The position numbers and the translations under genes were made by a program. Shown in pieces: positions 6,465 to 53,883 of a stretch of 64,000 nt of DNA. Source of the stretch: Microbispora bryophytorum. GTDB lineage: Bacteria; Actinomycetota; Actinomycetes; Streptosporangiales; Streptosporangiaceae. The notes beneath the pieces are model-generated. The model did not search any database and was not told where the DNA came from. It saw only the letters and a program-made list of their open reading frames with translations. The stretch lies in the NCBI RefSeq assembly GCF_006874465.1, contig NZ_VIRL01000006.1, positions 62,001 to 126,000 on the forward strand, in the 5' to 3' direction. How positions within the stretch are numbered: the stretch's first letter is position 1; every line of letters begins with the position of its first letter.

Positions 6465-6540
6465 GCCCCCGTAGCCCAATGGCAGAGGCAAGCCCCTTAA
6501 AAGGGCTGTGGTGTGGGTTCGAGTCCCACCGGGGGCACCA
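6465..6540 (+). tRNA. tRNA with anticodon UAA (nominal Leu), short variable arm
   Basis: A complete 76-nt cloverleaf. The acceptor stem GCCCCCG/CGGGGGC is followed by discriminator A and an encoded CCA. The D-stem GCC/GGC has only 3 bp and encloses loop CAATGGCAGA. The anticodon stem AGCCC/GGGCT encloses loop CTTAAAA, giving anticodon UAA. The variable loop is the 5-nt GTGGT, and the T-arm is GTGGG-TTCGAGT-CCCAC. UAA would read the rare Leu codon UUA, yet bacterial tRNA-Leu normally has a long variable arm, so charging identity is uncertain. From the anticodon stem onward the gene is part of the 99-bp attachment repeat of the adjacent element. Confidence 0.85.
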
Positions 6541-34718: not shown

Positions 34719-39144
<4,426 letters not shown>

Positions 39145-39236: not shown

Positions 39237-41333
39237 CTATCGGGCCAGTTCGGCGCGCAGCTCGGCGGGCGTGGTGACCGGCGCCCGGCAGGTGAACCGC
39301 CGGCACACGTAGGCCGCGGGCGAGCCGTCGACCATTCCCCGCCCCTCCAGCAGCGGCACGTCCACCGGCACGTTCGCCGGCAGGTCCCCCGGCACGCTGC
39401 CGGCGGGTCCTGCGCCGGCAGGTCGTGTGCCTGCTTGTCCGGTGGCGGCGTGTCCCGTGCCGGCGGGTCCTGTGCCGGCGTGTCCCGTGCCCAGCGCGAC
39501 GACCAGCCCCGGCGTGCCGGACATGAGGGCCGCCGTGTGCAGCGCGCGGGTGCGGGCGTCGTCGGCCGGGCCGACGATCGCCACCTCGACAGGGCCGCGC
39601 AGCGCCGCCTCCGCCACCGCGAGACCCCACCCGGCGAACCGGGCGTACCGCTCCGCCATCGCGGAGACCGTGCCCAGCGCCGCCTCGGCCGCCTCCCGGT
39701 GCCGGGCCGAACCGGTGAGCGCGGCGTACGACAGCAGCGCCCCCGCCGCCGCGAACTGCCCCGAGGGCGTCGCGTTGTCGGCCGGGTCCTGAGGCCGCTG
39801 GAACAGCCGCTCGCCGTCGTCGGGGGCGTCGTAGAACCCCCCCGACTCGTCGGGGAACCGCGTCAGGACGGTTTCCAGCAGGTCTGCGGCGCGATGGAAC
39901 CACCGGCTCTCGCCGGTGACGCCATAGAGGGCGAGGAAGCCCTCGGCCGTGTTGGCGTAGTCCTCCAGCATGCCCGCGTTGGCCCCCGCCCGGCCGTCAC
40001 GGGAGGTGCGCAGCAGCCGGGCCGGGCCGCGGCTCACCGTGTGCAGGTCGTCGAGCAGCTCGGCCGTCTCGCGTGCGGCGTCGAGCAGGTCCGGCCGCTC
40101 GAACAGCGCGCCCGCCTCGGCCAGGGCGGCGATGACGAGCCCGTTCCAGGAGGCCACGACCTTGTCGTCCCGGCCCGGCCGTGGCCGCAGCTCCCGCGCG
40201 GCGCGCAGGGCCGTACGGACCCGGTCGAACCGCGCCGGGTCGTCGGGGTCGGTGAGAAGCTGGAGCACCGACGTGCCGTGCTCGAAGGTGCCGGTCACCT
40301 CGAACACCGATGCGGCCCAGGCGGCGTCGTCCTCCCCGAGGACCTCGCGGAGCTGGTCGGGCGTCCAGACGTAGAACAGGCCCTCGCAGTGAGCGCCGTC
40401 CGGTCCCTCACTGTCGGCGTCGAGGGCGGAGGCGAACCCGCCCTCGGGCGTGCGCATCTCCCGCAGCAGCCATTCGGCGGTCTCCAGGACCACCCGCTTG
40501 GCCAGGACCGAGCCGGTCGCGCGCCACCAGTGGGCGTAGACCCGCAGCAGCAGGGCGTTGTCGTAGAGCATCTTCTCGAAGTGCGGCACCACCCAGCCGG
40601 CGTCGACCGAATAGCGGGCGAAGCCCCCGCCGAGCTGGTCGTACATGCCGCCCCTGGCCATCGCCTCCATGGTCGTCTCCGCCATGGTCATGGCGTCGCG
40701 GGTGCCGTGCCGCAGCAGGAACTCCAGGACCATGGACGGCGGGAACTTGGGCGAACCGCCGAATCCGCCCCGCTGCTCGTCGAAGCTCTCCGCGAGGTTC
40801 CGTACGGCGAGGTCGAGGGTCTCGGCGGTGGGCAGCGGGCCCGAGGGCGCCCCGGTGCGCTCGACGAGCGCCTCCACCACCTTCTCCCCCTGGGCCAGGA
40901 CGCCTTCCCGGTCCTGCCCCCAGGCCTGCGAGACGGCGTGCAGCACTCGCTGGAAGTGCGGCCGGGGGAAGTAGGTGCCGGCGTAGAACGGGTGCCCGCC
41001 GGGGGTGGCGAAGACCGTCATCGGCCAGCCGCCCTGCCCGGTCATCGCCTGGACCGCGCCCATGTAGACGGCGTCCACGTCGGGCCGCTCCTCGCGGTCC
41101 ACCTTGACGTTGACGAACAACTCGTTCATCAGCCGCGCGGTGGCCTCGTCCTCGAACGACTCGTGCGCCATGACGTGACACCAGTGACACGCCGAATAGC
41201 CCACGCTGATCAGCAGGGGGACGTCGCGCCCGCGCGCCTCCGCGAACGCCTCCTCGCCCCAGGGGAACCAGTCCACCGGGTTGTCCGCGTGTTGCAGGAG
41301 GTAGGGAGAGGTCTCGTCACCCAGCCGGTTCAT
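39237..41333 (-). CDS. DUF255 thioredoxin-fold / six-hairpin protein (YyaL-like)
   Basis: A 698-residue protein. Residues 1-165 form the DUF255 thioredoxin-like domain ([43 protein letters not shown] with a CHWC motif). The remainder is an alpha/alpha six-hairpin region ([49 protein letters not shown]) like N-acylglucosamine epimerases. Members are conserved from bacteria to human SPATA20 and lack a proven reaction. A His/Pro/Ala/Gly repeat ([18 protein letters not shown]) near residue 650 is an unusual insertion. ATG 41333 is the start. A decayed copy of its first 35 codons lies 480 bp upstream. Confidence 0.9.
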
Positions 41334-42062: not shown

Positions 42063-43226
42063 GTGGGCTTGGATCTGGACTTCGCTATCAGGCACTCGGG
42101 ACGCCCCGCGGCCGTCATGACGCGGCGCGACGTCGCGCGGGTGCTGCTGGCCGTGCCGTCCGGACAGGCCCTGGTCGCCCTACCCGACCTGCGGCGGCAA
42201 CTGCTCGCGGCGGGCAACCCGCTGTCGCCCAGGTTCTGGGAGTCGGCGAAAGCCGTGCTGATGAACATCGAATCCGGCGTGGCGACGGTCGGCGACGTGC
42301 AGCGCTGGCTGGAGTCCAGCGGGACCGAGCCGATCATGCTCACCCGCAGCTACTTCCTGTGGCCTGAGGAGAGCGAGCGCGGCCCGGTGGCCACCGAGAT
42401 GTACGAGCGGCTGGTCGAGTTCCTGGAGGAGCGGCTGGCGGCCGGGGAGATCGACGCGGACGCGCTGGCCGCCGGGGACTCCGACGCCCGGCACGCCTAC
42501 GAGGAGCTCCAGGAGCGCTGGCTCGGCACCGCGCTGCCGGACGGCAGGGTGCCCAACGTCGTGGTCAACGACGAGCAGGACCAGGAGCTGTACGCCGCCT
42601 GGGACGAGGAGGAGGCGTACGCGCTGAGCGAGTTGCGGCGGGTGCTCGACGACCTGCCGGAGCCGCCCTTTCCGGCGGACGCTCTCCGCGCGGCCGCCCG
42701 GCGGCTGCGCGTGACGTTGACCCGGCCCGGCTATCCGGGCAACGTGCTGCGCGCCTGCGCCGGGCTGGAGGACGGCGGGCTGCCCGAACGGGACGAGGAC
42801 CTGTGGCTCACCGTCGCCGCCGGGATCGCCGCGCCGATCTCCGACCTTCCCGACGAGGAGGACGCCGCCCGGTTCTTCGACATGGAGGGCGAGCTCAGCC
42901 ACGAGGACTCGATACTGGCCTCGTTGTGCGCCATCCACCACGCCGACTGGCTCGCGTCGGTGATCACCCTGGTCCGGTACGGCCCGGGCGTGCTCGCGTC
43001 GCCCGAGCGGATCGCCCGGTTCATCGCCGACTCCGAGGACGTCGACACCGACCCCGACGAGCCGGAGGACCTGGAGGCGACGGAGATGCTGTTCACGGCC
43101 GTGACGCCGCTGTGGGCGCACCTCGGCATCGTCGACCGGGCCGAGGTGCTGACCCCGCTGGGCTGGTGGGGCCTGCCCAAGGCACTGGAGCGCGCCTGGT
43201 CCTCGGGCACCGCGCTACCCGACTGA
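42063..43226 (+). CDS. Conserved protein of unknown function
   Basis: A 387-residue acidic soluble protein. Nothing in it matches a family I recognise. Visible features are an N-terminal segment [30 protein letters not shown], a central Glu-rich stretch ([51 protein letters not shown]) and a C-terminal part with [27 protein letters not shown]. There is no signal peptide, membrane segment or cofactor motif. GTG 42063 is preferred because TAGGCT (about 42049-42054) is a plausible -10 of a leaderless transcript and the earlier frame has no family support. Confidence 0.65.
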
Positions 43227-43312
43227 GCTCCCGGCTGCCCGCCTGCGCTCCCGACTGAGCTTCCGACCGCCCGATCGAGCTCCCGGCTGAGCTCCCCGCC
43301 GGAAGGCCAGAC

Positions 43313-51942: not shown

Positions 51943-53883
51943 GTGTCCATTTCAGTAGAGGTACCGACGCCCACCACCCACGGCGATCTGGCGGACTGGG
52001 TGAGGCGGATCGCGGAGCTGACCCAGCCGGACCGGGTCGAATGGTGCGACGGCTCCGAGGCCGAATGGACGCGCCTGACCAACCTCCTGGTCGAACAGGG
52101 CACCCTCAAGCGGCTGGTCAAGCGCCCCAACAGCTTCTACGCGGCCTCGGACCCCAGCGACGTCGCGCGCGTGGAGGACCGCACGTTCATCTGCTCGGAG
52201 CGTGAGGAGGACGCCGGGCCGACCAACAACTGGATCGCGCCCGACGAGATGCGCCGCACGTTCGCCACCCTGTTCGAGGGCTGCATGCGGGGCCGGACGA
52301 TGTACGTCGTGCCGTTCTGCATGGGCCCCCTGGGCGGGACCATCTCACAGCTCGGCGTCGAGATCACCGACTCGCCGTACGTCGTGGTGTCGATGCGGAT
52401 CATGACCAGGATGGGAGAGGCGGCGCTGCGCCTCATCGAGGAGCGCGGAGCGGCGCGAAAGGCCCGAGAGAGCGAGGCACGAGCCAACGAGGGCCGCAGC
52501 AAGCGCGACCACGAGGACGGAGCGGCGCGAAAGGCCCGAGAGAGCGAGGCGCGAGCCAACGAGGGCCGCAGCAAGCGCGACCACGAGGACGGCGACTTCG
52601 TCAAGGCGGTCCACTCGGTGGGCGCGCCCCTGGAGCCGGGCCAGGCCGACGTGCCGTGGCCGTGCAGCCGGACCAAGTACATCAGCCACTTCCCGGAGAC
52701 CCGTGAGATCTGGTCGTACGGCTCGGGCTACGGCGGCAACGCGCTGCTGGGCAAGAAGTGCTACGCGCTGCGGATCGCCAGCGCGATGGCCCGCGACGAG
52801 GGCTGGCTGGCCGAGCACATGCTGATTCTCAAGCTCACTCCGCCGCAGGGCGAGGCGAGGTACGTCGCGGCGGCCTTCCCGTCGGCGTGCGGCAAGACGA
52901 ACCTCGCCATGCTCCAGCCCACGATCCCGGGCTGGAAGGTCGAGACGATCGGCGACGACATCGCCTGGATGCGCTTCGGCCCGGACGGCCGGCTGTACGC
53001 GATCAACCCGGAGGCCGGCTTCTTCGGCGTCGCGCCCGGGACCGGCGAGTCCACGAACGCCAACGCCATCAAGACGCTGTGGGGCAACAGCATCTTCACG
53101 AACGTCGCGCTGACCGACGACGGGGACGTCTGGTGGGAGGGCCTCACGGACGAGCCGCCCGCGCACCTCACCGACTGGAAGGGCCGTGACTGGACACCGA
53201 AGTCCGGCGAGCCCGCCGCCCACCCGAACGCCCGGTTCACCACTCCGGCCGAGCAGTGCCCGACGATCGCGGGCGAGTGGCAGGACCCGGCCGGAGTGCC
53301 GATCTCGGCCATCCTGTTCGGCGGCCGCAGGGCGACCGCGGTGCCGCTGGTGACCGAGTCGCTGAGCTGGCGGCACGGCGTCTTCCTGGGCGCCAACGTG
53401 GCCTCGGAGAAGACCGCGGCGGCCGAGGGCAAGGTCGGCGAGCTGCGCCGCGACCCGTTCGCGATGCTGCCGTTCTGCGGCTACAACATGGGCGACTACT
53501 TCGCGCACTGGATCGAGGTCGGGACGATGACCGACCCGGAGAAGCTGCCCAGGATCTACTACGTGAACTGGTTCCGCAAGGACGCGAACGGGCGCTTCCT
53601 GTGGCCGGGCTTCGGCGAGAACAGCCGGGTGCTCAAGTGGATCGTCGACCGGCTGAACGGCGTGGCGGACGCCGTGCCCACGCCGATCGGCAACCTGCCG
53701 GCCTCGCTCGACACCGAGGGCCTCGACATCACGCCCGAGGACATGGAGCTCCTGCTCAGCGTCGATCCCGAAGTGTGGCGCGAGGAGGCCGAGCTGATCC
53801 CGCCCCACTTCGAGACCTTCGGCGACCACATGCCGAAGGAGCTGTGGGACGAGTACCGCGCCCTCGTCCAACGGCTCGGCTGA
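51943..53883 (+). CDS. pckG: GTP-dependent phosphoenolpyruvate carboxykinase with tandem insertion
   Basis: A 646-residue GTP-type PEPCK converting oxaloacetate to PEP at the entry to gluconeogenesis. Visible motifs are the kinase P-loop [15 protein letters not shown] near residue 315, [34 protein letters not shown] and the C-terminal [23 protein letters not shown]. Residues 169-216 are a 48-residue insertion of two near-identical 24-residue units (beginning [16 protein letters not shown]). Without it the sequence reads [15 protein letters not shown] as in other actinomycetes, so the frame and active site are kept. GTG 51943 follows TAAGGAG. Typical family length is about 600. Confidence 0.95.
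52447..52590 (+). repeat. Tandem 72-bp insertion inside pckG
   Basis: Two units, 52447-52518 and 52519-52590, differ at one position (GCA versus GCG, both Ala). Each encodes [16 protein letters not shown] then RSKRDHED. The insertion is exactly in frame. Confidence 0.93.

Follow-up and report, generated by a model that had tools for sequence, protein, structure and literature searches.

Mobile hairpins that sit in frame within genes are known as a peculiarity of Rickettsia, and similar repeats reportedly occur in Wolbachia, going by a cited title. The Rickettsia palindromic elements are short dispersed hairpins, 105-150 bp in length and carrying terminal inverted repeats of some 12 bp. They lie in frame in unrelated conserved proteins as well as in intergenic DNA and are apparently tolerated (PMC10969869, PMC2229807). 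REP elements are small hairpins with GTAG or CGTC tags that are sometimes intragenic (PMC3733652). PARCELs are tandem coding repeats of 25 residues with dyad symmetry that are thought to be mobile; they are amphipathic, they lie in ORFs of unassigned function, and many are membrane-targeted (PMC2996958). Mycobacterial MIRUs are described as intergenic tandem minisatellites, for example the 77-bp units in senX3-regX3 (PMC4213456).

The window analyzed here is a stretch of 64,000 nucleotides from Microbispora bryophytorum (contig NZ_VIRL01000006.1, positions 62,001 to 126,000 of the forward strand). Its gene for GTP-dependent PEP carboxykinase (PEPCK) carries an insert of two tandem units. With a probability of about 0.78, we read the repeated unit as a non-autonomous, structured, coding-tolerant mobile element of Streptosporangiaceae that has been doubled in tandem in PEPCK. 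The features are as follows.

51943 to 53883, + strand: GTP-dependent PEP carboxykinase gene, host of the insert (646 aa; ORF with Pfam PF17297 and PF00821)
52448 to 52519, + strand: unit 1 of the putative 72-bp coding hairpin element (TRF; match of covariance model R2 at 52447-52510, 49.7 bits)
52520 to 52591, + strand: unit 2, with one silent base relative to unit 1 (TRF; match of model R2 at 52519-52582, 45.5 bits)
52461 to 52465, + strand: 5' arm GGCCC of the predicted upper stem, unit 1 (unit 2: 52533-52537; from the sequence and the covarying stem)
52491 to 52495, + strand: 3' arm GGGCC of the predicted upper stem, unit 1 (unit 2: 52563-52567; from the sequence and the covarying stem)

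Compared by description, and leaving sequence homology aside, the element appears to work like the Rickettsia palindromic elements. It is inserted in frame in many unrelated protein genes (14 of 55 loci) and appears to form a hairpin, and both features support the likeness in style that the original prediction had drawn. Unlike the Rickettsia elements, it is a GC-rich unit of actinomycetes that is often in tandem, is biased to the coding strand and lacks long terminal inverted repeats; it also differs from them in size (72 bp) and in the modelled stem at its ends, the outermost of which is 4 bp. The element resembles REP elements in being a small and at times intragenic hairpin. Unlike them, it has no GTAG or CGTC tag at its ends among 49 aligned elements (consensus GGAGCG...CGCGACC, by inspection), its tandem units run head to tail, and two copy-rich genomes have no hit to Y1_Tnp, the domain of the RAYT/Y1 transposase that partners REP. 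With the PARCEL, the element shares a tandem coding repeat of similar size and dyad symmetry; it differs in the strong hydrophilicity of its peptide and in its insertion into known enzymes. The likeness to MIRUs lies in the tandem minisatellite form. As for features of a MITE, long inverted repeats are absent, and GAGCG-like letters flank both sides at some sites and are also part of the unit.

The host protein has the domains that are standard for its class (PF17297, PEPCK_N, 4.8e-100; PF00821, PEPCK_GTP, 8e-172), and the insert is spanned by the best stretch of neither (18-181 and 288-644). TRF reports a tandem repeat at 52446-52592 with a 72-bp unit, 2.0 copies, a 98% match and a score of 287, the top score among the 30 TRF rows of the window. 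The original prediction of near-identical 72-bp units that differ by one silent base and add 48 residues to PEPCK is confirmed by TRF and by the sequence itself, in which the units are in frame and differ as GCA and GCG, both alanine. The repeat was also found where it had been placed, at 52447-52590, with its best register one base off, at 52448-52591. The two-unit state is that of the assembly, where the array spans about 145 bp of a 328-kb contig. The phmmer alignment of the window protein with its best PDB match, 4WIU, is split into residues 9-163 and 215-646 and is interrupted at the insert only. An AlphaFold model of the window protein, built from 9 sequences, was uninformative (mean pLDDT 34) and lent no support to the surface loop of the original prediction. 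The window also contains other short tandem repeats at 38810-38889, 39398-39491 and 43209-43296 (periods 9-45 bp); at E<=1 model R2 finds none of them.

The PEPCK site varies among species of Microbispora. PEPCK was matched in all 15 genomes of the genus, with two units in the window genome, one unit in 5 and none in 8. Empty congeners read GAGGAGCGC or GAGGAACGC across the site, followed in most by GGCGACTTC. One unit thus amounts to exactly 72 additional bp (156 vs 84 bp). Variation in copy number had been anticipated, and states of 2, 1 and 0 units are indeed present. The insert is not a normal PEPCK loop of all relatives either, since 8 of the 15 Microbispora genomes are empty and the PEPCK match is unsplit at the site in 51 of 54 Nonomuraea genomes. 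One Microbispora genome (G010, locus L022) has a net insert of 17 residues with unlike sequence at the PEPCK site, which may be a decayed copy of the element. In the six filled Microbispora genes, pN/pS is 0.80 for the insert vs 0.15 for the rest of the host gene. The insert peptide thus looks as if it evolves nearly neutrally, as a tolerated stretch under little constraint, and the tolerance that had been proposed is borne out to that extent, as an appearance.

The original prediction also described a dispersed coding repeat able to spread through protein genes. This part stood for the family and failed for the genome itself, in which the PEPCK units alone stand out: peptide and DNA searches returned no other convincing copy there. 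The peptide search found both PEPCK units and one match at the chance level (E 2.9), and the DNA search found both units and matches at E 0.04 or worse, also at the chance level. With model R2 there were two matches at E<=1e-4; model R1 added a third, at E<=0.01, too weak to be listed. Dispersal is evident in Nonomuraea, and copies are also present in Planotetraspora, Planobispora and others. A protein search of 297 family genomes gave matches in 21. In PEPCK, Planotetraspora and Nonomuraea have them at the main site, Planobispora at a second site, and Nonomuraea also at the 3' end of the gene; other matches fall in unrelated places. When a sequence model of the core was used, 128 of 341 family genomes gave a match at E<=0.01, in many cases a weak one, and chance probably accounts for many of the matches in the range from 1e-3 to 1e-2. 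Strong multiple matches to the core model are found in Nonomuraea, where the threshold E<=0.01 is passed in 49 of 54 genomes and the stricter E<=1e-5 in 44. The matches in these 54 genomes total at least 262 when the best candidates, up to 16 per genome, are scored. With 150 candidates scored in each, five Nonomuraea genomes gave 10, 16, 11, 13 and 13 matches; deeper scoring of two Microbispora genomes gave 2 (one at E 0.0099) and 0.

Beyond the family, a sample of the actinomycete class gave matches at E<=1e-4 in 8 of 394 genomes, all of them Streptosporangiaceae. The element has so far been seen in this family only, by a class search that missed the known copy in G002. Among candidate phage carriers, matches had E values of 0.2 or worse. 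A collection of plasmids gave one full-length match, in a Nonomuraea gerenzanensis record (NZ_LT559118.1, locus L303). This record is labelled plasmid I, and its size of 11.85 Mb suggests a chromosome. A copy in an Eisenbacteria MAG, first picked up as a pattern match, was rejected, being absent with model R2. Among open-licence PMC papers, a literature search returned no title about this element.

The element occurs in transcribed DNA with a strong strand preference. Merging 121 arrays by flank similarity gave 55 loci, taken from matches that were returned or chosen as best. At 14 loci the element is in frame within an ORF, which agrees with the claim of a dispersed coding repeat that fits in frame in many protein genes. 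At a further 14 the two flanking ORFs are co-oriented with the element between them, and at 22 a single flank is called, in the sense orientation. Flanking genes are therefore called as sense only at 50 of 55 loci (binomial p 2e-10, with coding calls from a home-made codon score and not a gene finder). The remaining 5 comprise 1 that is antisense to both flanks, 2 that are antisense to the sole called flank, 1 mixed and 1 uncalled. By Pfam, the in-frame hosts include PEPCK, glycerate kinase, an S9 peptidase, a glycosyltransferase, MMPL, cytochrome b, SRAP, a BTAD-AAA regulator and a methyltransferase. In a cytidylyltransferase-NeuB protein, the element lies in frame in the stretch between the domains.

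Many copies are associated with gene ends. At six listed loci the upstream ORF reads through the element and stops just past it, and at ten other listed loci the upstream ORF ends within about 20 bp of the element start. Neighbors of the element include citrate synthase, HPr and a dehydrogenase-aminotransferase pair. In this pair, which we take to be tdh-kbl and which is one of the six read-through loci, a tandem array lies at the end of the zinc-binding dehydrogenase gene, ahead of the aminotransferase-fold gene. At L173 the element sits at the stop codon of the citrate synthase gene (Pfam), and L178, L201 and L221 share its flanks. Elements are also present at the PEPCK 3' end (L072, L087, L186, L284). 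In three of these genomes (G271, G112, G286) the TAG of the element's CGATAG is the stop codon of the gene, and the protein ends ...RLGAAR; in G291 the 3' end carries the first part of an element only. Three further copies of the PEPCK subfamily also have CGATAG and are read in another frame; where frame 0 is read through, the copy has CGAAAG or CGACAG instead. Frame-0 copies free of TAG are what would be left by coding selection.

Reading frames alone do not account for the bias. Of 55 units (close to one per locus, though not precisely so), 54 offer one or more open frames on the sense strand, as do all 55 on the antisense strand, so stop codons are not the cause. Since antisense peptides are less hydrophilic than sense peptides (mean hydropathy of sense frame 0, -2.08), some protein-level selection may still act within genes.

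The alignment is best read as that of a hairpin whose stems covary and whose internal loops are conserved. In 49 aligned distinct elements, an upper and a lower stem vary in their letters yet keep their pairing around a conserved loop region. Pairing holds in 88.9% of cells, 11 of 16 pairs show double-sided changes, and cells changed on both sides number 78, vs 27.8 in shuffles. Pairing falls to 25-38% when the partner is slid by 1-3 columns. One stem pair alone is found as C-G (20), G-C (11), A-U (8) and U-A (2). The alignment took 49 of 106 distinct extracted elements (68 after removal of near-copies, 60 after removal of odd rows, and 11 more omitted), and shared ancestry can inflate its covariation figures. 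Structure is nevertheless the best reading because the slid controls fail and the pair types are varied. Folding of single units was no better than that of shuffles in 4 of 5 tests, and it was dropped as evidence; the case for structure therefore rests on covariation. In the PEPCK subfamily the upper stem is kept and the lower stem looks shifted, by inspection only. Searches with Rfam at 20 loci gave 5 weak matches, none at the element and none at the gathering score. A tRNA gene at 6465-6537 is the sole Rfam match at the gathering score in the window. The original prediction had missed the hairpin, the coding-strand bias and the repeated use of one site.

Under the preferred reading, the PEPCK insert would be a copy of a non-autonomous mobile element of about 72 bp (24 codons), later doubled in tandem. 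Such an element would spread into transcribed DNA, almost always on the coding strand, and would persist where it is harmless. With a length divisible by three and, as a rule, two open sense frames, the unit could survive within genes, where it would encode a charged and hydrophilic segment, or at their ends. The PEPCK copy would be a tolerated passenger, and tandem duplication, internal deletion and loss would alter the length of the element. The reading is directly supported by the family of copies, the hairpin, the in-frame hosts, the strand bias, the patchy filled and empty sites and the near-neutral peptide; the case for movement is comparative throughout. We infer that the bias arises from strand-selective insertion, via a transcript or an exposed single strand, and not from selection alone.

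The element presumably moves in trans. Counts of Y1_Tnp and RVT_1 across the genomes pointed to no mobilizing enzyme. Copy number correlates weakly at most with either (Y1_Tnp, rho 0.21, p 0.13; RVT_1, rho 0.32, p 0.017). Two copy-rich genomes, G283 and G312 (13 and 14 matches), have no Y1_Tnp hit, and G283 with its 13 copies has no RVT_1 either. On these counts, a Y1 transposase or a reverse transcriptase was not favored as the helper. It is a speculative and rather doubtful extension that the element is SINE-like, a structured RNA that has no enzyme of its own and inserts via its transcript into the coding strand at preferred sites of expressed genes. If true, such an element would go on adding new in-frame loops to core enzymes.

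At the PEPCK site alone, the pattern can also be explained by a single ancestral insertion with many exact losses since then, or by short recombination with PEPCK alleles between species, in place of repeated insertion. We regard this as a serious possibility, somewhat short of even odds. The insert occupies the identical nucleotide position in three genera. The match is split at this site in 3 of 54 Nonomuraea genomes, all of which are read as filled. Two of these inserts (G254 and G277) are identical 72-mers, the third has 2/72 differences, and G277, with a single model match, shows no second copy. The window genome likewise has a single locus. Filled PEPCKs are also clustered on the PEPCK tree (9 of 500 shuffles as low; shuffle mean 10.9 changes), so inheritance explains part of the pattern. 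In the 60 bp that precede the insert, G311 resembles G254 (91.7%) more than it does its empty sister G280 (86.7%). In 2 of 4 windows from -60 to +240, G277 is slightly closer to G254 than to G210, its sister.

Against loss or transfer, the tree of 52 genes with the insert removed requires 8 changes between filled and empty, at least 6 of them forced by well-supported branches. It uses 33 of 54 Nonomuraea PEPCKs, and 12 of its 30 "empty" labels come from an unsplit match where the insert pattern did not fit; in G300 and G312 the PEPCK matches are slightly longer. Among the Nonomuraea rows, each filled one has an empty sister. The host genes of G254 and G277 differ by about 9%, and under vertical descent at this divergence zero changes in 72 bases are unlikely. 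Transfer is constrained as well: immediately past the insert region, G277 shares the codon AGC with its empty sister G210, where G254 has GAC, so a transferred stretch would have to end within a few bases. The data give no clear signal of local allele transfer either way. Several PEPCK-subfamily copies lie in or beside PEPCK, and one lies about 2 kb downstream of PEPCK in G291, a clustering that suggests local spread. The evidence at PEPCK thus does not fully separate repeated insertion from exact loss and short transfer, and exact losses or allele transfer could lie behind the rest of the pattern.

The element might instead be a functional mRNA structure, such as a protein-binding, processing or translation-coupling site, which selection holds on the sense strand and whose stems it restores; the in-gene copies would then be side effects. 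The coding-strand bias outside coding frames, the upstream stop codons close to the element start at ten listed loci, the compensatory stem changes and neighbors such as citrate synthase, HPr and the dehydrogenase-aminotransferase pair all accord with such a role. We nonetheless consider it unlikely, given the patchy presence at one locus among related species (PEPCK, cytochrome b), the unrelated hosts, the shortened copies in cytochrome b and our impression of no shared regulatory theme. An assembly duplication of a normal PEPCK loop, which the near-identity of the second unit might suggest, is hardly credible in view of the five congeners with one unit and eight with none, the one-base difference between the units and an array of only about 145 bp inside a 328-kb contig.

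If the mobile element is real, a Rickettsia-like lifestyle would be present here in large actinomycete genomes, with core-enzyme hosts, tandem arrays, filled and empty sites in sister species, and a strong coding-strand bias beyond what stop codons explain. Two old questions, by what route coding-tolerant elements spread and whether proteins gain new loops from them, would become testable in culturable bacteria.

Changes in length are seen at several sites. The net gain is 72 bp at PEPCK, at the regulator (G222 vs G242) and at the second PEPCK site in Planobispora, where it is reckoned against the window gene. The regulator gene (L215, L216) carries two separate in-frame elements in G222 and one in G242. 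At the cytochrome b site, 14 of 30 loci could be classified (1 full with an extra part, 3 partial and 10 empty), and the 16 that did not fit the pattern were left unclassified. In the cytochrome b gene of Nonomuraea G303 (L243), the full element is followed by its last 27 bp (9 codons) twice more, in frame.
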